Below are positions 4,959 to 58,783 of a stretch of DNA of 64,000 nt, one piece after another. Made by a program: the position numbers and the translations under genes. Origin of the DNA: an uncultured Pseudomonadota bacterium (GTDB lineage: Bacteria; Pseudomonadota; Alphaproteobacteria; Rs-D84); contig CAMZIQ010000003.1 of the NCBI GenBank assembly GCA_947307295.1, positions 62,001 through 126,000 of the forward strand, written 5' to 3'. Numbering within the stretch: the first letter of the stretch is position 1; each line of letters begins with the position of its first letter. The notes below the pieces were generated by a model that was not told where the DNA came from, did no database searches, and saw nothing but the letters and a program-made list of their open reading frames with translations.

Positions 4959-4961
4959 CCG

Positions 4962-5145
4962 ATTTTGGTTATCGCGCGCAACGCGCACGATTAGCAAAAT
5001 CGAGTGTCGCGCCGTAGCTGAGCATTTATCGAAGATAATTAATAATGATTGATATTAATAATACGATATTAAGCACAGCGAAGGCGGACGGAAAGCACAC
5101 AAGATTGTTTTGGTTATCGCGCGCAACGCGCACGATTAGCAAAAT
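4962..5145 (+). repeat. Duplicated imperfect palindrome downstream of tRNA-Arg
   Basis: TTTTGGTTATCGCGCGCAACGCGCACGATTAGCAAAAT occurs at 4963-5000 and again at 5108-5145. Each copy can fold as an approx. 18-bp hairpin. Confidence 0.85.
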
Positions 5146-5221
5146 TTGTATGCGAGAACGAATGTAATGAAGTTCAAGCAATTACAAATTTGCGCACAGA
5201 CACTTGTGTCGAGCGAAAATC

Positions 5222-5623: not shown

Positions 5624-6489
5624 CGTGGCGACATAGTTTTTGTCATTGGTATAGCCACTACCGCTTCTTGAACATTAATAGTCCCAATTGTAAGCCCCGG
5701 AACAAAATTTCCAATGGCATCACCGTTTAAAATACTAAGCGCATCTGGGTTGGTGTTTGTGTAATAACATTTTGCAGAGTCGTTGTTTGTGCTGGGCTGT
5801 ACATAATTATACGTTCCGGTAGAATCTGTAAATTCTTCCATATAACAATCCGCGATTGTATGAAAATTCCACGATCTTTCAATTGTTTGATTGTTTCCAT
5901 CTAATTCAACAGTAGTCGCTTCAACGGTTGCGCTATTTGGACATGATGCACACGATATACTAGACGTTGATGGATGACATAAACTGTTTAAAATAAGCTC
6001 GCGGTCTTGTCTATATTCTGTAGCTTGCACCTGCAAGCTATTAATGTCTTCAATAGTATCGTTTGAAGCTTGGTTAAAAAACTTTCGCATTTGCTCAAAT
6101 AATTCAAGAGTAGTACCATTAATATAGTAATTGTTTGTAGTAACTGTATCAATACTTACTGAATTATTGTTATTGTTATTGTTATTGTTATTGTTATTGT
6201 TATTGTTATTGTTATTGTTATCTTGTGTTGGAAATGTTGCTGATTTCAACCAATTAAAGCCGACACGATAATTACCGCATTTGTAAACATATTGTCCCTC
6301 TGGACAAATGGTGACGGTGGTTCCAGTGGGTTCTGATGAAAAAGTAGTCGCTGCAAGGGCATTAATCATTTGTTGATTGTTTGTGCTCATTGTTCCTGGG
6401 ATCAAAGTCCACGCAAAGACGTCACCATACTGTGAAAACAATATTCCAGCAACAAAAACTGAACGTAAAAAAAAGCGATTACAAGTCAT
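5620..6489 (-). CDS. Secreted hypothetical protein with poly-Asn tract
   Basis: 289 aa with an N-terminal signal-like segment and a 19-residue Asn run encoded by a hexanucleotide microsatellite. Confidence 0.6.
   Translation of the reverse strand: MTCNRFFLRSVFVAGILFSQYGDVFAWTLIPGTMSTNNQQMINALAATTFSSEPTGTTVTICPEGQYVYKCGNYRVGFNWLKSATFPTQDNNNNNNNNNNNNNNNNNNNSVSIDTVTTNNYYINGTTLELFEQMRKFFNQASNDTIEDINSLQVQATEYRQDRELILNSLCHPSTSSISCASCPNSATVEATTVELDGNNQTIERSWNFHTIADCYMEEFTDSTGTYNYVQPSTNNDSAKCYYTNTNPDALSILNGDAIGNFVPGLTIGTINVQEAVVAIPMTKTMSPR
6163..6221 (-). repeat. Hexanucleotide microsatellite (TTATTG)n
   Basis: About 9-10 uninterrupted TTATTG units on the + strand, encoding Asn-Asn on the - strand. 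Confidence 0.9.
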
Positions 6490-8010: not shown

Positions 8011-8424
8011 ATGCGCAAGATAAAAATTTTTATAACGGTATTGGTTTTATATGAATTTGTAATGTTGTCAGTATTGCAGATACACGATTATTGTATTGCG
8101 CTTTTTAATTATAACTTTTGCGATACTGACAATTATAAGTATTTTTTGATGTGCGTGATGTTGCCGGGTTTGTTTGGTTTGTTTTGTTGGTGGATACCGG
8201 AAATATCACGGCTTTTTTGTCCTAATAAATGTGAAGTAAAACAAGACCCTACAATTAAAAGCATTTTAAATGAAATCATATCAAAACAGGATATAGAAAG
8301 ATTGATAACCACAGCAATTATAATGGGGATACAAAAATTCGCAACAACGCACCCTAAAACCACCGAAGTTTTTGATGATGTATTGGATGTAATAAAAAAA
8401 ATAGATACCAAAAAGAAAAAATAA
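8011..8424 (+). CDS. Hypothetical membrane protein
   Basis: MRKIKIFITVLVLYEFVML..., two hydrophobic segments. Confidence 0.5.
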   Translation: MRKIKIFITVLVLYEFVMLSVLQIHDYCIALFNYNFCDTDNYKYFLMCVMLPGLFGLFCWWIPEISRLFCPNKCEVKQDPTIKSILNEIISKQDIERLITTAIIMGIQKFATTHPKTTEVFDDVLDVIKKIDTKKKK

Positions 8425-8425
8425 A

Positions 8426-8487
8426 GTCCGCTACGCTTTGCTACGGCGCGACATCCGTCTACGCTTCGCTTTGCCGAGATAGGCTGA
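8426..8487 (-). repeat. Dispersed GC-rich repeat, copy B
   Basis: Reverse complement TTTTCAGCCTATCTCGGCAAAGCGAAGCGTAGACGGATGTCGCGCCGTAGCAAAGCGTAGCGGAC is similar to copy A; lies downstream of tRNA-Thr. Confidence 0.6.
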
Positions 8488-8497
8488 AAAATTTTAA

Positions 8498-8521
8498 GCC
8501 CACACTTTGTTGTGTGGGCTA
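8498..8521 (-). terminator. Terminator of tRNA-Thr
   Basis: AGCCCACACAACAAAGTGTGGGCT hairpin (minus strand) followed by TTAAAATTTTT. Confidence 0.6.
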
Positions 8522-8532
8522 ACAATTTTTCG

Positions 8533-9457: not shown

Positions 9458-10690
9458 ATGGGAATAATAAAAGGTTTTATAAATAAAATAAGAAATGAAA
9501 AAAAATTGTATGAAGAAGTTGTGAAGTTCGCATTATCTTACGTTTGGTTTTATCCATCAGCAATTAGTGAAAAATTTGGGGTTGACCAAGAAAAAGCAAT
9601 CGCTTTAATTGAGCGTGCGATTAAAGAAGGTAAACTCCCTTCATTTAGCGCTACCACGGATACAGAAGGTAAAAAGTATTGGTATTTGCGTCAGATGTCA
9701 GAAAAAGAAGAAGAAGCCTTGTATCAAAAAGTAAAATCTTATGTGTGTTCATCAGAATATGATGATAGCGTAGATTCTTATAATGCTATTGATAAAAAAT
9801 TTGGTTGCCCTGATTATATGATACGGGTTTTCTTTGAACGTTTATACAGAGAAAAAATCGTGAATGAAAAATTTGATCGTATAATTGAACCAACACCAGA
9901 AGTGCAAGATTTTACAATAATTACTGGTGATCCAAAATCTGTGTCTGAACCAGAACCTGTTTCTGAACCAGAATCTGTTTCTGAACCAGAACCTGTTTCT
10001 GAACCAGAATCTGTGTCTGAATCAAAATCTGTTTCTGAATCAGAATCTGTTTCTGAATCAACACCAGCAGAAACACGTGAAGAATCTGTTTCTGAATCAG
10101 AATCTGTTTCTGAATCAGAATCTGTGTCTGAATCAGAATCTGTGTCTGAACCAGAATCTGTTTCTGAACCAGAACCTGTTTCTAAACCAGAACCTGTTTC
10201 TAAACCAGAATCAACATCTAGTGCTAAAATGAACAAGGGTGCGGTGATAGTGGCTACTGTTTTGCTTGGTACGGCTTTGCTTGTCGGTGGTGCATTTTTT
10301 ATCGGTAAAAATGCAGGAAAAAAGGCTCAATTTGAAGCTGCTGCTGATACAACAAAAAACGCTATGAATACTGTTGCTCAGGTTCAACCTGCACAACCAG
10401 AAGCCCAGGCAGAAGACACAGTCCAAATGACCCCAGAAGAAATCGCAAAACATGGTATAGATATTGCTCCGAATGAAAAACCAGCTGAAAAAGTTGGGTT
10501 TAAACCTAAGAAAACAAAAACATATCGTGTTGTAACTGCTGATCAAGCTGAAAAACCTGGTACGATTTATTTGAAAAAAGGTGAAAAATACCGTCCGACA
10601 CCTGAAATGGGTGATAAATATTGCGAAGGAAATCCTTCTTCTTTGACTAAGATATATCGTGTCGTAGAAGCAGAAAACGATGGCAGATAA
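9458..10690 (+). CDS. Single-TM protein with winged-helix-like N-terminal segments and long (SVSEPEP)n linker
   Basis: [45 protein letters not shown] resembles FtsK-gamma-type winged helices. Repetitive linker, then [25 protein letters not shown]. Start after AAAGGAG. Confidence 0.6.
9940..10215 (+). repeat. Degenerate 18-nt repeats encoding [12 protein letters not shown]
   Basis: Repeated TCTGTTTCTGAACCAGAA-type units. Confidence 0.9.
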
Positions 10691-25884: not shown

Positions 25885-26064
25885 TTATGGAATAAAAAAG
25901 TGGGATTCGCTCGCTCGGCACTGCGCGCCGGCTGCGCGGCAACCGTGACGATTTCACCGCGTTTTACTTGTGAAATCTACTGCTTGTCGAACCCCAGTCC
26001 GCGTTTCTTTGTCCCGAACCATCCGGGACAAAAATAAAACGCCCTTTTGGGCGTTTTGTTTTTG
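25885..26064 (-). repeat. tRNA-3'-end-associated cassette E2, downstream of tRNA-Ser
   Basis: Minus strand: terminator, CCCGGATGGTTCGGGACAAAGAAACGCGGACTGGGGTTCGACAAGCAG..., then a GCGAATCCCAC stub; alignable with E1. Confidence 0.55.
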
Positions 26065-26154
26065 TGGCGGATGGTGAGGGATTCGAACCCCCGGACGAGT
26101 TGCCCCGTCAGCGGTTTTCAAGACCGTCGCATTCGACCGCTCTGCCAACCATCC
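26065..26154 (-). tRNA. tRNA-Ser (anticodon TGA)
   Basis: GGATGGTTGGCAGAGCGGTCGAATGCGACGGTCTTGAAAACCGC...GGGGGTTCGAATCCCTCACCATCCGCCA with long variable arm. Confidence 0.95.
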
Positions 26155-26162
26155 AAAACTCT

Positions 26163-26277
26163 TTCGCGACAGGTCTTTCAAACCTTGGCGGTTTTGGTCT
26201 GCGCAAAACTTTTTGTTTTGCTCGACCTCGCTTCGCAGTCAAGACCGTCGCTATTGAACCGCGGCTTTCAACCATCC
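26163..26277 (-). pseudogene. Truncated/interrupted tRNA-Ser 5' half copy
   Basis: AGAGTTTTGGATGGTTGAAAGCCGCGGTTCAATAGCGACGGTCTTGA repeats the leader and 5' half of tRNA-Ser, then diverges. Confidence 0.65.
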
Positions 26278-31728: not shown

Positions 31729-32637
31729 ATGAAAAAACTTTTAAACATATCTGTAATCGCGGCTTTGGCAATATTGCCAATGGCGGCAAACGCAACAGAT
31801 TATTCTGTGACAGATCCAACGGCTGCGGATCCGGCAACAGCAGCAACTACCGGTCCAGGTTGGGCATTAGCACAAACGGCAGCTACCGATAATACTAACC
31901 TTGCTACGGCTGGCTATGTTAAAGGTGCATATAACCAAGCGATGAAAGCAATTAATAAGGTTGCAGCAACAGCAGACACCGCAGTTCAGTCTGTGACAAC
32001 AGGTGCAACAGCTGGTACAATCTCTGTTGATGGTACAGATGTAGCAGTTAATGGTGTTTTGACAGATGCAAGTGCCTTTGCAACAGCAGCACAAGGTGCT
32101 TTAGCAGATAGTGCAGTTCAGTCTGTGACAACAGGTGCAACAGCTGGTACAATCTCTGTTGATGGTACAGATGTAGCAGTTAATGGTGTTTTGACAGATG
32201 CAAGTGCCTTTGCAACAGCAGCACAAGGTGCTTTAGCAGATAGTGCAGTTCAATCTGTGACTGAAGGTTCTACAAATGGTACAATCAGTGTTGATGGTAC
32301 GGATGTTGATGTTCACGGTTTGGGTTCGGCTGCGTTCGTAGATACTGATGACATCGCTGGTACGGCTGGTACATATGACGACACAAATTCTAGTTTAGGT
32401 GCGACAACAATTCAGGGCGCTATCGAAGCTTTGGATACAGCTGTTGATAGTATGAATACAGCGTCGGCTAATTATGCTAAAAAGATTGGTGTCACAAATA
32501 CGATCAGTGCTTCAACAATTTCTGGAACTGTTCCTACTGTGACAGCATGGGGTGCAGATACACCAGGAACAGCAGTGGTCACTGCTAGCATCACGGGCGC
32601 TGCATATACTGAAACAGCACCAAGTAGCGGTGAATAA
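31729..32637 (+). CDS. Secreted Ala/Thr-rich repeat protein
   Basis: Signal peptide; two exact 132-bp repeats and a partial third. Confidence 0.65.
   Translation: MKKLLNISVIAALAILPMAANATDYSVTDPTAADPATAATTGPGWALAQTAATDNTNLATAGYVKGAYNQAMKAINKVAATADTAVQSVTTGATAGTISVDGTDVAVNGVLTDASAFATAAQGALADSAVQSVTTGATAGTISVDGTDVAVNGVLTDASAFATAAQGALADSAVQSVTEGSTNGTISVDGTDVDVHGLGSAAFVDTDDIAGTAGTYDDTNSSLGATTIQGAIEALDTAVDSMNTASANYAKKIGVTNTISASTISGTVPTVTAWGADTPGTAVVTASITGAAYTETAPSSGE
31981..32244 (+). repeat. Tandem 132-bp coding repeat (2 copies plus degenerate third)
   Basis: GCAGTTCAGTCTGTGACAACAGGTGC... at 31981 and 32113; divergent start of a third at 32245. Confidence 0.95.
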
Positions 32638-40302: not shown

Positions 40303-43300
40303 ATGAAGAAGCTGTTTTTGACTTCGGGTCTTGTCGTATGCATAGCATGCTCTGTCTTTGCTGCAACAGACATCCCAAGCGGTGTGAACAGCTCTCAATG
40401 TACTTATACCTATCTGGATTCTTATACTGGACCTGTTGCGTTTGAAGCTAAATGGCGTTCGGCGTATTCTGGTGCAATTACATTGAACAGCAATAAATAT
40501 GCATCATCTGATGCGAATTCTGCTGTGCAATATTCCGTGACTACAGCAGTATCACCGTCAACTGTATACAGTAAATATGGTGATGCTTTGTATGCCAGTT
40601 GTGATTGTTCAAACAATACATGTTCAACCGCACAGGCTTCTGTGACAGAACCGACACTAACGGGTTATGATTTTGGCGGATTTTATACTGGCAAAGAAGG
40701 TACTGGAACCCAGGTCATAGACGATTCTGGTGATGTTTTATCAGCTGCTAATACACAAATTTCTACCAATTGTGATACTGCAACATGGTATGCTAAATGG
40801 ACCCCACAAGAACACACGGTTTCATATTCTTGTGGTAGTGCGCCTGTGGGTGCTTCTGTATCAATGTCGGCTTATTGTGACGATACTAATGACGAAGATT
40901 GTTCTGATGATGTTGATTATGATGCCAGTTATACGGTAAAAACGACTCCTGGGGATTGTGTGTTATCTGGATATCATTTCGGCGGATGGCAATGTGATTA
41001 TAATCTTTTTTCTGGTGCGCATACATCCACAACGTACAATTCGGCATTATCTAACGACGTCTACAGCGTGACTGCATCCGGCGCATTTAAAAGCGCGGCG
41101 AATGTAGATTGTGATGCAACATGGACAGCGAACACATACACAGTATCATACGCGATGGATGGCGGTACACATGGTGCGAGCCATCCTGAATCAGCGACCT
41201 ATGATGCGACATTTAACGTATCTAATCCAACAAAAGACGGCTATACATTTAGTGGTTGGACAATAAGCGGCATGGATAGTGGTACCCATGAATACGGCGC
41301 AACGAACAGCTTGGGAACAACAACAACTAATACAACATTAACAACGGATGCGGAATACTTTAAGAATTTACGTTCTACTTCTGGTACGGTGACGTTTACG
41401 GCAGGTTGGGAAGCATGTACAGCATGCAATGCTGGAACTGGATGCAGTTGTGAATTAAGTGTAGTAAATAATACATGTACATATACAACAAGTGCGAACG
41501 CTGGTTATACATTAACATCTGGCAATGGCACAGCAACCCCAGTATGTACAGCAGTGACAACGGATATAACACTGTCATCAACAGAAGCTAGCAATCATGG
41601 AACAACAATAATCTATGGTAAATATGATACAGGGGCATATTTAGATTCTGCCAGAACGGCACAGTTAATGAGCACCAGTTCTAATGCGATAACGATACCG
41701 GAACGCAGCGGATATACATTTAATGGGTATTATGATAGTGCTAGCAACGGTACACAATACATAGGTTCTAATGGGAACATAACAACAGATGGTGATAACG
41801 CTGCAAAGGGCTATACAACGAATCAGACATGGTATGCACAATGGACACAATGTAGCGCATGCAATGCTGGAACTGGATGCAGTTGTGAATTAAGTGTGGT
41901 AAATAATACATGTACATATACAACTAGTGCGAACGCTGGTTATACATTAACATCTGGCAATGGCACAGCAACCCCAGTATGTACAGCGAACACATACACG
42001 GTATCATACACGATGGATGGCGGTACACATGGTGCGAGCCATCCTGAATCAGCGACCTATGATGCGACATTTAACGTATCTAATCCAACAAAAGACGGCT
42101 ATACATTTAGTGGTTGGACAATAAGCGGCATGGATAGTGGTACCCATGAATACGGCGCAACGAACAGCTTGGGAACAACAACAACTAATACAACATTAAC
42201 AACGGATGCGGAATACTTTAAGAATTTACGTTCTACTTCTGGTACGGTGACGTTTACGGCAGGTTGGGAAGCATGTACAGCATGCAATGCTGGAACTGGA
42301 TGCAGTTGTGAATTAAGTGTGGTAAACAATACATGTACATATACAACTAGTGCGAACGCTGGTTATACATTAACATCAGGTAATGGCACAGCAACGCCAG
42401 TATGTACAGCGAACACATACACAGTATCATACACGATGGATGGCGGTACACATGGTGCAAGTCATCCTGAATCAGCAACCTATGATGCGACATTTAACGT
42501 ATCTAACCCAACAAAAGACGGTTATACATTTAGTGGTTGGACAATAAGCGGCATGGATAGTGGCACCCATGAATACGGCGCAACAAACAGTCTGGGAACA
42601 ACAACAACTAACACAACATTAACAACGGATGCAGAATACTTTAAAAACTTACGTTCCACATCAGGTACGGTGACGTTTACAGCGGGCTGGGAAGCATGTA
42701 CAGCATGCAATGCTGGAACTGGATGCAGTTGTGAATTAAGTGTAGTAAATAATACATGTACATATACAACAAGTGCGAACGCTGGTTATACATTAACATC
42801 TGGTAATGGCACAGCAACACCAGTATGTACAGCAGTGACACCAGATATAACATTATCATCAACAGAAGCCAGCAATCATGGGACAACAACAATATACGCA
42901 AAATATAATGTTGGTGCATATCTGGATTCTGCCAGAACGACACAGTTAATGAGCACCAGTTCTAATGCGATAACGATACCAGAACGCAGTGGATATACAT
43001 TTAATGGGTATTATGATAGTGCTAGCAACGGTACACAATACATAGGTTCTAATGGGAACATAACAACAGATGGTGATAACGCTGCAAAGGGCTATACAAC
43101 GAATCAAACATGGTATGCACAATGGACACAATGTAGCGCATGCAATGCTGGCACAGGATGCAGTTGTGAATTAAGTGTGGTAAATAACACATGTACATAT
43201 ACAACCAGCGCGAACAACGGATATACATTAACATCTGGCAATGGCACAGCAACGCCAGTATGTACAGCGAACACATACACGGTATCATACACGATGGATG

Positions 43301-43992
43301 GCGGTACCCATGGTGCAAGTCATCCTGAATCAGCGACCTATGATGCGACATTTAACGTATCTAACCCAACAAAAGACGGTTATACATTTAGTGGCTGGAC
43401 GATCAGCGGAATGGATAGTGGCACCCATGAATACGGTGCAACAAACAGTCTGGGAACAACAACAACCGGCACAACATTAACAACGAATGCGGAATACTTT
43501 AAGAATTTACGTTCTACCTCTGGCACGGTGACGTTTACGGCAGGTTGGGATGCTGATCTTATACCAGTGACATTTAAGTGTCTTTATCCAAATGGTCATG
43601 ATGAATCATCTGCTGGGGCTTCTGGACCAACACCAGCTATTATGAAGATAAGAATGGATGGTTATGCAACATTGTCATCCGTGTGTACTTTGTCAGGTTA
43701 TACATTCCAGGGGTGGAGTTGTTCTGGTCTTACAAATTCTAGTGGTGCGGCTTTGACCGGTACAATAACTAATGGAACAACAGTCTATCTGCATAATGCA
43801 TCCGGTGCTTTGTGTGAAGGGGTTTGGTCTCCAAATGAAATTGATTTGACATGGTATTTAGATAGTGATGCAACAACTGGTCTGACGGTTCAATCAGCGG
43901 CTGATATGTGTCTGTATGATGATGATATTACTTTCCCAACCAATTCTATGATTAAAAATGGTTATAGTTTCAATGGTTGGAGACTTAGATAA
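40303..43992 (+). CDS. Large secreted Cys-rich InlB B-repeat-like protein, 1229 aa
   Basis: Signal peptide; repeated NTYTVSYTMDGGTHGASHPESATYDATFNVSNPTKDGYTFSGWTISGMDSGTHEYGA and ACNAGTGCSCELSVVNNTCTYTTSANAGYTLTSGNGTATPVCT modules. Confidence 0.8.
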   Translation: MKKLFLTSGLVVCIACSVFAATDIPSGVNSSQCTYTYLDSYTGPVAFEAKWRSAYSGAITLNSNKYASSDANSAVQYSVTTAVSPSTVYSKYGDALYASCDCSNNTCSTAQASVTEPTLTGYDFGGFYTGKEGTGTQVIDDSGDVLSAANTQISTNCDTATWYAKWTPQEHTVSYSCGSAPVGASVSMSAYCDDTNDEDCSDDVDYDASYTVKTTPGDCVLSGYHFGGWQCDYNLFSGAHTSTTYNSALSNDVYSVTASGAFKSAANVDCDATWTANTYTVSYAMDGGTHGASHPESATYDATFNVSNPTKDGYTFSGWTISGMDSGTHEYGATNSLGTTTTNTTLTTDAEYFKNLRSTSGTVTFTAGWEACTACNAGTGCSCELSVVNNTCTYTTSANAGYTLTSGNGTATPVCTAVTTDITLSSTEASNHGTTIIYGKYDTGAYLDSARTAQLMSTSSNAITIPERSGYTFNGYYDSASNGTQYIGSNGNITTDGDNAAKGYTTNQTWYAQWTQCSACNAGTGCSCELSVVNNTCTYTTSANAGYTLTSGNGTATPVCTANTYTVSYTMDGGTHGASHPESATYDATFNVSNPTKDGYTFSGWTISGMDSGTHEYGATNSLGTTTTNTTLTTDAEYFKNLRSTSGTVTFTAGWEACTACNAGTGCSCELSVVNNTCTYTTSANAGYTLTSGNGTATPVCTANTYTVSYTMDGGTHGASHPESATYDATFNVSNPTKDGYTFSGWTISGMDSGTHEYGATNSLGTTTTNTTLTTDAEYFKNLRSTSGTVTFTAGWEACTACNAGTGCSCELSVVNNTCTYTTSANAGYTLTSGNGTATPVCTAVTPDITLSSTEASNHGTTTIYAKYNVGAYLDSARTTQLMSTSSNAITIPERSGYTFNGYYDSASNGTQYIGSNGNITTDGDNAAKGYTTNQTWYAQWTQCSACNAGTGCSCELSVVNNTCTYTTSANNGYTLTSGNGTATPVCTANTYTVSYTMDGGTHGASHPESATYDATFNVSNPTKDGYTFSGWTISGMDSGTHEYGATNSLGTTTTGTTLTTNAEYFKNLRSTSGTVTFTAGWDADLIPVTFKCLYPNGHDESSAGASGPTPAIMKIRMDGYATLSSVCTLSGYTFQGWSCSGLTNSSGAALTGTITNGTTVYLHNASGALCEGVWSPNEIDLTWYLDSDATTGLTVQSAADMCLYDDDITFPTNSMIKNGYSFNGWRLR
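41128..43550 (+). repeat. Near-identical intragenic repeats (about 420 bp and 850 bp spacing)
   Basis: AACACATACAC(A/G)GTATCATAC(A/G)CGATGGATGGCGGTAC block recurs near 41131, 41989, 42412 and 43269. Confidence 0.9.
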
Positions 43993-50046: not shown

Positions 50047-50104
50047 AAAAAACATACACGCTTTTGGTGTATGTTTAGTTGTTTCTGGTGGCTCTGGTCG
50101 GAAT
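50047..50104 (-). repeat. Displaced tRNA-Leu 3' stub plus terminator (copy of 50239-50296)
   Basis: ATTCCGACCAGAGCCACCAGAAACAACTAAACATACACCAAAAGCGTGTATGTTTTTT present twice, offset 192 bp. Confidence 0.9.
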
Positions 50105-50277
50105 GTTATACCCCATCTGCGTTTTCACTTGATGGGTCCCCATCGACTCGTAAGATTCAAACTTCGCTGACGCTTGTTTTCATCAACTATCGTCCCGAAC
50201 CTTCGGTTCGCTTCCGACTCACAGCCCCTGACATAAACAAAAAACATACACGCTTTTGGTGTATGTTTAGTTGTTTC

Positions 50278-57256: not shown

Positions 57257-58138
57257 TTATTTTGAAAATTGCTTGGTTACCTTATTAAAATAATATTTTA
57301 TATAAGATTTGTAATTTGTAAATTTGCTTGTTTGAATTACTTTGAAAATCTCACGTTGTTCCTGCCCAAAATTTTTTATTTCTGTTCTAGTAAGATTTTT
57401 TTCTGGGAATTTAGACATAATAATATCATGAGTGCTTTTTAAATAATCTGGACATTCTGCAAAATTAATAACGAAGCCATTATGAACCATAAAGATAGGT
57501 TTATATGGGGCAGTATCGGAATTGTCCATAACACATCCAATATTTACAGAAGATAGTACTTCGGGCAAGTTGTTTAATCCGCCTTTGTATCTGCGAATAA
57601 TAACATCTGGGGGCACATCGTGACCACCTTGTTTAACACGTTCAGAAACGCGATAAATACTTACTGCTGGATCCAATACATAGGGATGTAAACTACAAAC
57701 ATTATAACCGTATAAATTTTTAGCTTTGTTTATCAAAGATAATGCCGTTCTACCAGCACCAGTAGTTTCAAATATCAAATTATCGCCATTAGAAAAAGCA
57801 TCGTATATTTTGTTTAATACGATTTTCCCAGATTCATATTTAAATTTCAATTCCAATAATTCTAATTCTCGTTCGTATTCAGCGAGTTGTGACAAACCAT
57901 TTTGTCCGGAATTTCCATCCTGTTCCATTTCGGCAATATAAAATTTTTTTGTTGTTTGGTCTATTAGGTGTGCATTTTCTGGTTTGTTGATTAGTTCTGC
58001 AAACTCAATATCTTGGTTGGCAAAAAAAGCTTGTTTAAAAAAAAGACTCTGTGTGGCAATTCGGTTGTAAAAAGTCGTTTTGCCAGCACCGTTTGGTCCA
58101 GAAATCAAGATAAACCAAGGTTTTTTATTGTTTTGCAT
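57257..58138 (-). CDS. Zeta-toxin-like P-loop kinase
   Basis: ILISGPNGAGKTTFYN, FANQDIEFAELINKPENA, LIFETTGAGRTALSLINKAKNLYGYNVCSLHPYV. Confidence 0.7.
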   Translation of the reverse strand: MQNNKKPWFILISGPNGAGKTTFYNRIATQSLFFKQAFFANQDIEFAELINKPENAHLIDQTTKKFYIAEMEQDGNSGQNGLSQLAEYERELELLELKFKYESGKIVLNKIYDAFSNGDNLIFETTGAGRTALSLINKAKNLYGYNVCSLHPYVLDPAVSIYRVSERVKQGGHDVPPDVIIRRYKGGLNNLPEVLSSVNIGCVMDNSDTAPYKPIFMVHNGFVINFAECPDYLKSTHDIIMSKFPEKNLTRTEIKNFGQEQREIFKVIQTSKFTNYKSYIKYYFNKVTKQFSK

Positions 58139-58257
58139 TTTGTTATTATCTCTGTTGTTTGTTTTTAGATGTTTATTATAGACAAAGATTTGTTTATGTC
58201 AATTATTTTTTATAAAAATAAAAAACCGTCCATAAAAATGAACGGTTTATTCAATTT

Positions 58258-58469
58258 TGGTGGAGCTGATCAGACTCGAACTGACGAGACGGTGATGGTT
58301 GCCCAAGAAGGAGTCTCTGTTAAAAAAAAGAAAACCGCTCTTTACGAACGGCTTTATTTATTCTGGTGGAGCTGATCAGACTCGAACTGACGAGACGGTG
58401 ATGGTTGCCCAAGAAGGAGTCTCTGTTAAAAAAAAGAAAACCGCTCTTTACGAACGGCTTTATTTATTC
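58258..58469 (-). repeat. 2 x 106 bp exact tandem repeat carrying the tRNA-Ala 3' end
   Basis: Units 58258-58363 and 58364-58469; each begins (+ strand) with the same 30 nt as the 3' end of the real tRNA-Ala at 58470-58499. Confidence 0.95.
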
Positions 58470-58545
58470 TGGTGGAGCTGATCAGACTCGAACTGACGAC
58501 CCCCTGCTTGCAAAGCAGGTGCTCTACCAACTGAGCTACAACCCC
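58470..58545 (-). tRNA. tRNA-Ala (anticodon TGC)
   Basis: GGGGTTGTAGCTCAGTTGGTAGAGCACCTGCTTTGCAAGCAGGGGGTCGTCAGTTCGAGTCTGATCAGCTCCACCA. Confidence 0.95.
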
Positions 58546-58550
58546 AGAAC

Positions 58551-58631
58551 TTTGCATTTAAGGATTGAACTCTTTTGACAGACCCGCTGCACTGTAAAGC
58601 AACTTACCTCTACCAACTGAGCTACAACCCC
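58551..58631 (-). pseudogene. Degenerate tRNA-Ala-like copy (intact 5' half)
   Basis: AAAGTTCTGGGGTTGTAGCTCAGTTGGTAGAG duplicated, followed by GTAAGTTGCTTTACAGTGCAGCGGGTCTGTC..., which no longer pairs as a tRNA. Confidence 0.7.
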
Positions 58632-58783
58632 AGAACTTTGCGACTTTCTCATGAAAGCCAAGTCATTTTATTAGTTTATAAATCAAAAGTCAAGATTTTT
58701 CTTGTTTTTTCAAAAATTATAATATAAAATCACAACCAACATTAACAAATAAATACAAATTCGCCAAAGGGGGTGAATACATA

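Follow-up and report, generated by a model that had tools for sequence, protein, structure and literature searches.

A TLR-type tandem array of tRNA 3' ends behind tRNA-Ala(TGC) in an uncultured alphaproteobacterium

The gene for tRNA-Ala(TGC) in the window analysed here, a single stretch of 64,000 nucleotides from an uncultured gut alphaproteobacterium, is followed by two identical units that each end in a copy of the tRNA 3' end, and this array is very probably a tRNA-linked repeat (TLR) array of that tRNA. It represents a degenerate form of a class that is known but unexplained and is abundant in this lineage. The best explanation of the whole, to which we assign a probability of about 0.6, is a TLR array whose copy number is driven by exchange and whose units are read through and processed into CCA-ended RNAs. 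That the Ala units have a selected RNA function is putative, and is put forward with some doubt. The parts of the array are as follows.

58470..58545, minus strand: intact tRNA-Ala(TGC) (ARAGORN; Rfam RF00005, 69.9 bits).
58364..58469, minus strand: 3'-linked unit 1, 106 nt, consisting of a terminator, GAGAC-loop-GTCTC and a 30-nt copy of the tRNA 3' end (58393-58364); identical to unit 2, with its 30-nt suffix in common with the tRNA.
58258..58363, minus strand: 3'-linked unit 2, 106 nt, with its tRNA 3'-end copy at 58287-58258 (by sequence identity with unit 1).
58437..58461, minus strand: terminator-like hairpin of unit 1, the first after the tRNA (consensus scan).
58331..58355, minus strand: terminator-like hairpin of unit 2 (consensus scan).
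58223..58248, minus strand: diverged terminator closing the array (consensus scan).

The exact 2 x 106-nt tandem carrying tRNA-Ala 3' ends that the sequence-only reading had described was borne out in full. The two units (58469-58364 and 58363-58258) are identical at 106 of 106 positions (TRF score 490, period 106), and each shares the exact 30-nt suffix TCGTCAGTTCGAGTCTGATCAGCTCCACCA with the 3' end of tRNA-Ala(TGC); within the window the 30-nt copies were each found by BLAST at E = 8e-11. Unit 1 starts at the base right after the CCA of the tRNA, in the same orientation and with no gap, and the tRNA 3' end occurs three times in 58258-58499, twice as unit copies and once as the tRNA's own last 30 nt (58470-58499). 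Each unit opens with a terminator-like hairpin and a T run, and the array region contains three terminators by the consensus scan, against 0.5 expected. A zeta-toxin-like kinase gene (57257-58138, minus strand; Pfam PF06414, E 1.6e-6) starts right past the array, and a P-loop reading frame similar to it was also seen near tRNA-Ala in genome G004 (locus L006). Other tandem repeats of the window are a 423-nt repeat present 5.7 times (41121-43550), a 132-nt repeat present 2.5 times (31981-32306), an 18-nt repeat present 15.7 times (9928-10212) and TTATTG present 9.7 times (6164-6221).

TLRs have been known from Escherichia coli since 1978, and E. coli K-12 contains 22 TLR genes in ten loci (PMC8144298, citing Rudd 1999 and Egan & Landy 1978). 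Their hallmark is a stretch of 18-19 bp at the 3' end of the unit that is identical to the upstream tRNA or rRNA gene. No function has been established, and the role in starvation recovery reported for the tyrT TLR was retracted (PMC8144298). Three TLRs, RrA, RrB and RrF, lie behind rRNA operons between dual terminators; they are transcribed by read-through, processed, and bound by Hfq and CsrA, and the repeated 3' end has been proposed to be the processing signal (PMC8144298).

What does the window array share with these repeats, and what sets it apart? Like the E. coli TLRs, it lies directly downstream of a tRNA gene in the same orientation, its units end in an identical 3' end (30 nt, ending at CCA), and its copy number falls within one to five per locus, with two in the window and from one to at least five in relatives. 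It differs in several respects: 1) a 30-nt copy instead of 18-19, 2) a unit of only 106 nt, 3) lack of an inverted arm, 4) a terminator repeated in every unit, and 5) a mirror unit at the 5' end of the same tRNA. RrA, RrB and RrF resemble the Ala units in carrying a repeat of the upstream RNA 3' end between two terminators, and the units described here usually also lie between two terminators. Unlike the Ala units, however, these three follow 5S rRNA at a spacing of about 150 nt, and binding of Hfq and CsrA has been reported for them.

Ala units were then sought in the genus by an exact pattern separating them from intact tRNA-Ala, and were found in 22 of 156 genomes, with no match to the reversed-pattern controls; the other 134 genomes lack the unit by this pattern, suggesting that it is dispensable. 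By name, the genomes that carry it are metagenome bins of Alphaproteobacteria, most of them from ruminants, horse and other herbivores. Two types occur: type A units (34-nt core AGAGACnCCTGCTTGGGCAACCATCACCGTCTC) sit behind tRNA-Ala(TGC), and type B units (GTTGGGACACTTGATGACATGCAA(C)ACGCACTC) sit behind tRNA-Ala(GGC). The type A core is 94% conserved between species, whereas the flanking terminators differ and the unit flanks do not align. In the unit/tRNA pairs compared, the final 28 nt matched the local tRNA without a difference, even in genomes with a variant T-loop; the single exception was G001, where a compensatory change of a T-stem pair separates unit and tRNA. Hairpins are formed by most type B units and by the type A units of G096, G145 and G015, the 5' part pairing with the tRNA 3' end; the Ala units of these relatives are palindromes like other TLRs, composed of an inverted 3' end, a loop and a direct 3' end. 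RNAalifold gave 13 pairs for type B, none changed on both sides, with one-sided changes only. A derivation of the unit bodies from the tRNA anticodon arm was considered and dropped, folding having shown inverted copies of the 3' end.

Judged from these sequences, a TLR unit is a palindromic satellite of a tRNA gene, made of an inverted 3' end, a loop and a direct 3' end with CCA. The palindrome is a feature of most units here and is not defining in the published TLR description; it is present in most of the relatives' units and absent from the window unit. In the window and in G002, G094, G111 and G159, a terminator occupies the position of the inverted arm, which is absent. The duplex of the window unit with its own 3' end reaches -8.4, compared with a mean of -8.3 with foreign 3' ends, so that the pairing advantage is gone. 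Set beside its relatives, the window unit has lost the inverted arm, and the short GAGAC/GTCTC helix is the remnant. The sequence-only reading had placed this GAGAC/GTCTC stem just upstream of the T-arm and had suggested that a transcript could form a CCA-ended minihelix without the 5' acceptor strand. Both ideas stand in part. The two motifs are able to pair and are invariant in nine of nine homologous units, and the stem is therefore conserved but without covariation support; the fold energy of the whole window unit is no better than that of shuffles (z -0.33). The minihelix fits the window unit as a degenerate member, but most of the relatives' units do contain a 5' strand, which is an inverted copy of the tRNA 3' end.

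Recent or ongoing amplification, also suggested from the perfect identity of the two units, was supported: units are identical within the window genome and differ between species, the number of Ala units per locus ranges from one to at least five across the genus genomes, and several contigs end inside arrays. The window genome is in 15 contigs, and the Ala copy number is a property of its assembly, for which at least two units is the safe figure. Contig C4 contains an identical copy of the Ala region of the window contig C3, which was treated as assembly redundancy and left out as independent evidence. Between these two contigs of the window genome (G000), tRNA-Ser, tRNA-Leu and tRNA-Ala and a 6.5-kb stretch match exactly, always offset by 71984, and the contig ends differ; the duplication looks like assembly redundancy or a strain mixture touching much of the window. 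That the second identical unit is itself an artefact would fit such a fragmented assembly, with its long identical stretches on two contigs, Ala locus included. This is nevertheless scarcely credible, as homologous arrays occur in independently assembled genomes, some with slight differences from copy to copy (G002, G014 and G056), and contigs tend to end inside arrays, which suggests collapse rather than expansion.

How might such an array be maintained and used? The copy number would change when the direct 3'-end copies undergo unequal exchange or slippage, and this process would also keep the units and the tRNA 3' end identical, as suggested by the lack of any unit/tRNA mismatch in almost every genome. 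If termination behind the tRNA is leaky, some transcripts would continue into the array. There, by analogy with the proposal for RrA, RrB and RrF, the copied 3' end could act as an RNA-processing signal and give rise to short CCA-ended RNAs. The terminator before each unit may prevent this transcription.

The 3'-end copies are not peculiar to tRNA-Ala; similar ones at other tRNAs had escaped the sequence-only reading. A copy of a tRNA's own 3' terminus (an exact match of at least 11 nt ending at the last base of the tRNA, within 400 nt downstream) was found for 13 of the 45 tRNAs of the window genome, compared with 8 of 1894 mismatched pairings, in which a tRNA was set against a flank from a tRNA gene of different amino-acid specificity. 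Such copies were seen at Lys, Arg, Gln, Pro, Glu, Gly, Ser and Leu tRNAs of this genome, and tRNA-His has a 14-nt internal copy downstream. The common plan runs from the tRNA through a terminator, an inverted 3' end and a body to a direct 3' end with CCA, behind which the terminator is often repeated. Bodies are common to different tRNAs, most of them with an inverted T-arm, GATGAGAA, and a direct T-arm, GGTTCGAC; when 399 Pseudomonadota genomes were searched for GATGAGAA-N(2-32)-GGTTCGAC, units were found behind Trp, Ser, Arg, Lys and Gln tRNAs. Units of this kind in the window are the following.

25888..26018, minus strand: TLR after tRNA-Ser(TGA) (covariance model R1, 64.6 bits, E 1.1e-15).
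50086..50277, minus strand: TLR-like unit after tRNA-Leu(CAA), with terminator, inverted T-arm, body, exact 19-nt 3'-end copy (50104-50086) and terminator copy (sequence reading).

R1 is a covariance model built from seven non-Ala units of the window genus only. It matched all four RtT units of E. coli (E 5e-5 to 1e-3) and gammaproteobacterial units at E values down to 1e-8, and gave no match in 14 tRNA-free loci in which the short search motif occurs by chance. Like the units described here, RtT RNA, or rttR (Rfam RF00391, E. coli tyrT-tyrV), is a tandem array behind a tRNA, every unit of which closes with the tRNA 3' end. The non-Ala units of the genus follow the rttR plan (inverted 3' end, GATGAGAA, GGTTCGAC, body, GAGnnAATCC and 3' end); E. 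coli rttR behind tyrV reads ...GGGGAAGGATGAGAAGC...AAGGTTCGACTCGAG...GAGTAATCCTTCCCCCACCACCA. The Ala units differ in lacking the GATGAGAA...GGTTCGAC body. In the window, the sole R1 match is the one at 26018-25888 behind tRNA-Ser(TGA), and the Ala array is not matched; Rfam at gathering score gave only tRNA matches in the window and none to RtT, and at E 0.1 there was no RtT match either in the Ala array locus (L131) or at the non-Ala genus units. The lack of an R1 match in the array and of an RtT match at its locus indicates that the Ala body is not of RtT type.

Several related observations were made beside these units. Four R1 bodies do not lie directly behind a tRNA, namely L244, L245, L246 and L248 (in G000, C2:175134-177409, C2:222177-222500, C7:4102-4411 and C14:4694-4807, respectively), and no rRNA was found there at gathering score. 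Some R1 bodies away from tRNA genes lie within another palindrome, CCCCCTCCAAAGGGGG, and the TLR-type body often begins with AACAAGTAG followed by a hairpin; this body may itself be a dispersed element. In the window, tRNA-Arg(CCT) and tRNA-Thr(TGT) directly precede other palindromic elements (4959-5160 and 8330-8532); the one after tRNA-Arg(CCT) includes GGTTATCGCGCGCAACGCGCACGATTAGCAAAATCGAGTGTCGCGCCGTAGC, and related sequence was found behind several tRNAs of the genus.

The recurrence of common bodies bears on a further possibility, which the sequence-only reading had suggested testing, that the cassettes serve as integrase att sites. On that view, integrative elements aiming at the tRNA 3' end would have left the units behind as scars, in the form of tandem att-like copies. 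A direct repeat of the tRNA 3' end is indeed the usual mark of integration at tRNA genes, and the paired T-stem change of tRNA and unit in G001 would suit the arrival of a 3' end from elsewhere. An integrative element, however, has an integrase gene and an element body between its 3'-end copies; the window units are 106 nt long, units in general measure only about 75-110 nt, and none of the seven neighbouring proteins tested is an integrase. Phage records gave no match, viral contigs gave none to the unit-specific pattern, and a mirror unit is present at the tRNA 5' end. With no relation to integrases or phages found and with bodies common to several of the many tRNAs that units follow, integration scars are very improbable, and this account is already largely refuted; att-site use is not supported.

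The main rival to the preferred reading is neutral origin and persistence, which we regard as possible though on the unlikely side. In such a case the units would be selectively neutral, arising when tRNA ends are locally duplicated as palindromes through replication slippage or template switching, spreading by unequal exchange and persisting without function. The patchy presence in 22 of 156 genomes, units that vary in number yet are identical within the window genome, a body module that also occurs away from tRNA genes, and a window unit that folds at the level of shuffles all agree with neutrality. So does the search for a conserved antisense target of the conserved loop GGTGATGGTTGC (at most one mismatch, 8 genomes), in which the recurrent exact matches were the units only and the rest were scattered. 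Two observations are harder to reconcile with it: species whose unit flanks do not align still show 94% identity in the type A core, and palindromes of different sequence recur at different tRNAs and in distant Proteobacteria.

On the other side of tRNA-Ala(TGC) lies a 34-nt direct repeat that the sequence-only reading had missed. It consists of the leader GCAAAGTTCT and the 24-nt tRNA 5' end, at 58641-58608, and belongs to the following features.

58546..58631, minus strand: mirror (5'-linked) unit, 86 nt, upstream of tRNA-Ala(TGC) (fold, duplex test and genus comparison); its parts, all on the minus strand, are the direct tRNA 5' end (58631-58608), a loop (58607-58583), the inverted 5' end TCTGTCAAAAGAGTTCAATCC (58582-58562) and a copy of the leader GCAAAGTTCT (58555-58546).
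58665..58693, minus strand: promoter-like TTGACT-17-TAAAAT upstream of the mirror unit (consensus scan only).

The mirror unit folds as one long hairpin (-27.4 kcal/mol), and the duplex between its direct 5' end and its inverted arm was better than in 197 of 200 shuffles. By exact-pattern search, mirror units occur in 22 of 156 genus genomes, with no control matches, and may stand in tandem, up to at least four (four in G068, two in G140). Where the tRNA starts with GGGGTCA rather than GGGGTTG, the inverted arm differs too, and pairs with the changed bases in G141 and G164. In the mirror-type units L087, L298, L299, L303 and L308, pairing is weak or no better than chance, so that the mirror palindrome is not universal. 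Given the promoter-like sequence upstream, the mirror unit would belong to the tRNA leader. One detailed description of TLRs (PMC8144298) makes no mention of a 5'-linked form. At tRNA-Ser(TGA) of the window (26065-26277), a partial copy of the tRNA's own 5' end lies upstream at 26277-26239, a possible second mirror-type unit. A partial tRNA 5'-end copy with different following sequence also lies upstream of tRNA-Ala(GGC) in G006 (L043), suggesting that mirror units may extend beyond the TGC gene.

A bolder idea, and an unlikely one, is that the genus has two-sided mimics of tRNA ends round one tRNA-Ala, with 3'-linked and mirror 5'-linked palindromes that are possibly co-transcribed with the tRNA and may influence its maturation in cis or in trans, for instance by acting as decoys for RNase P and the 3' processing enzymes or by timing their action. 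The mirror unit is the part of the locus that deserves attention: it shows that such palindromes can start from either end of a tRNA gene, and its position at the 5' end constrains their origin to template switching or inverted duplication, not site-specific integration. Overall, the TLR architecture is found behind many tRNAs, both in uncultured alphaproteobacteria and in a range of gammaproteobacteria. With this recurrence in both groups it is a widespread trait of proteobacterial tRNA genes, open to comparative study.
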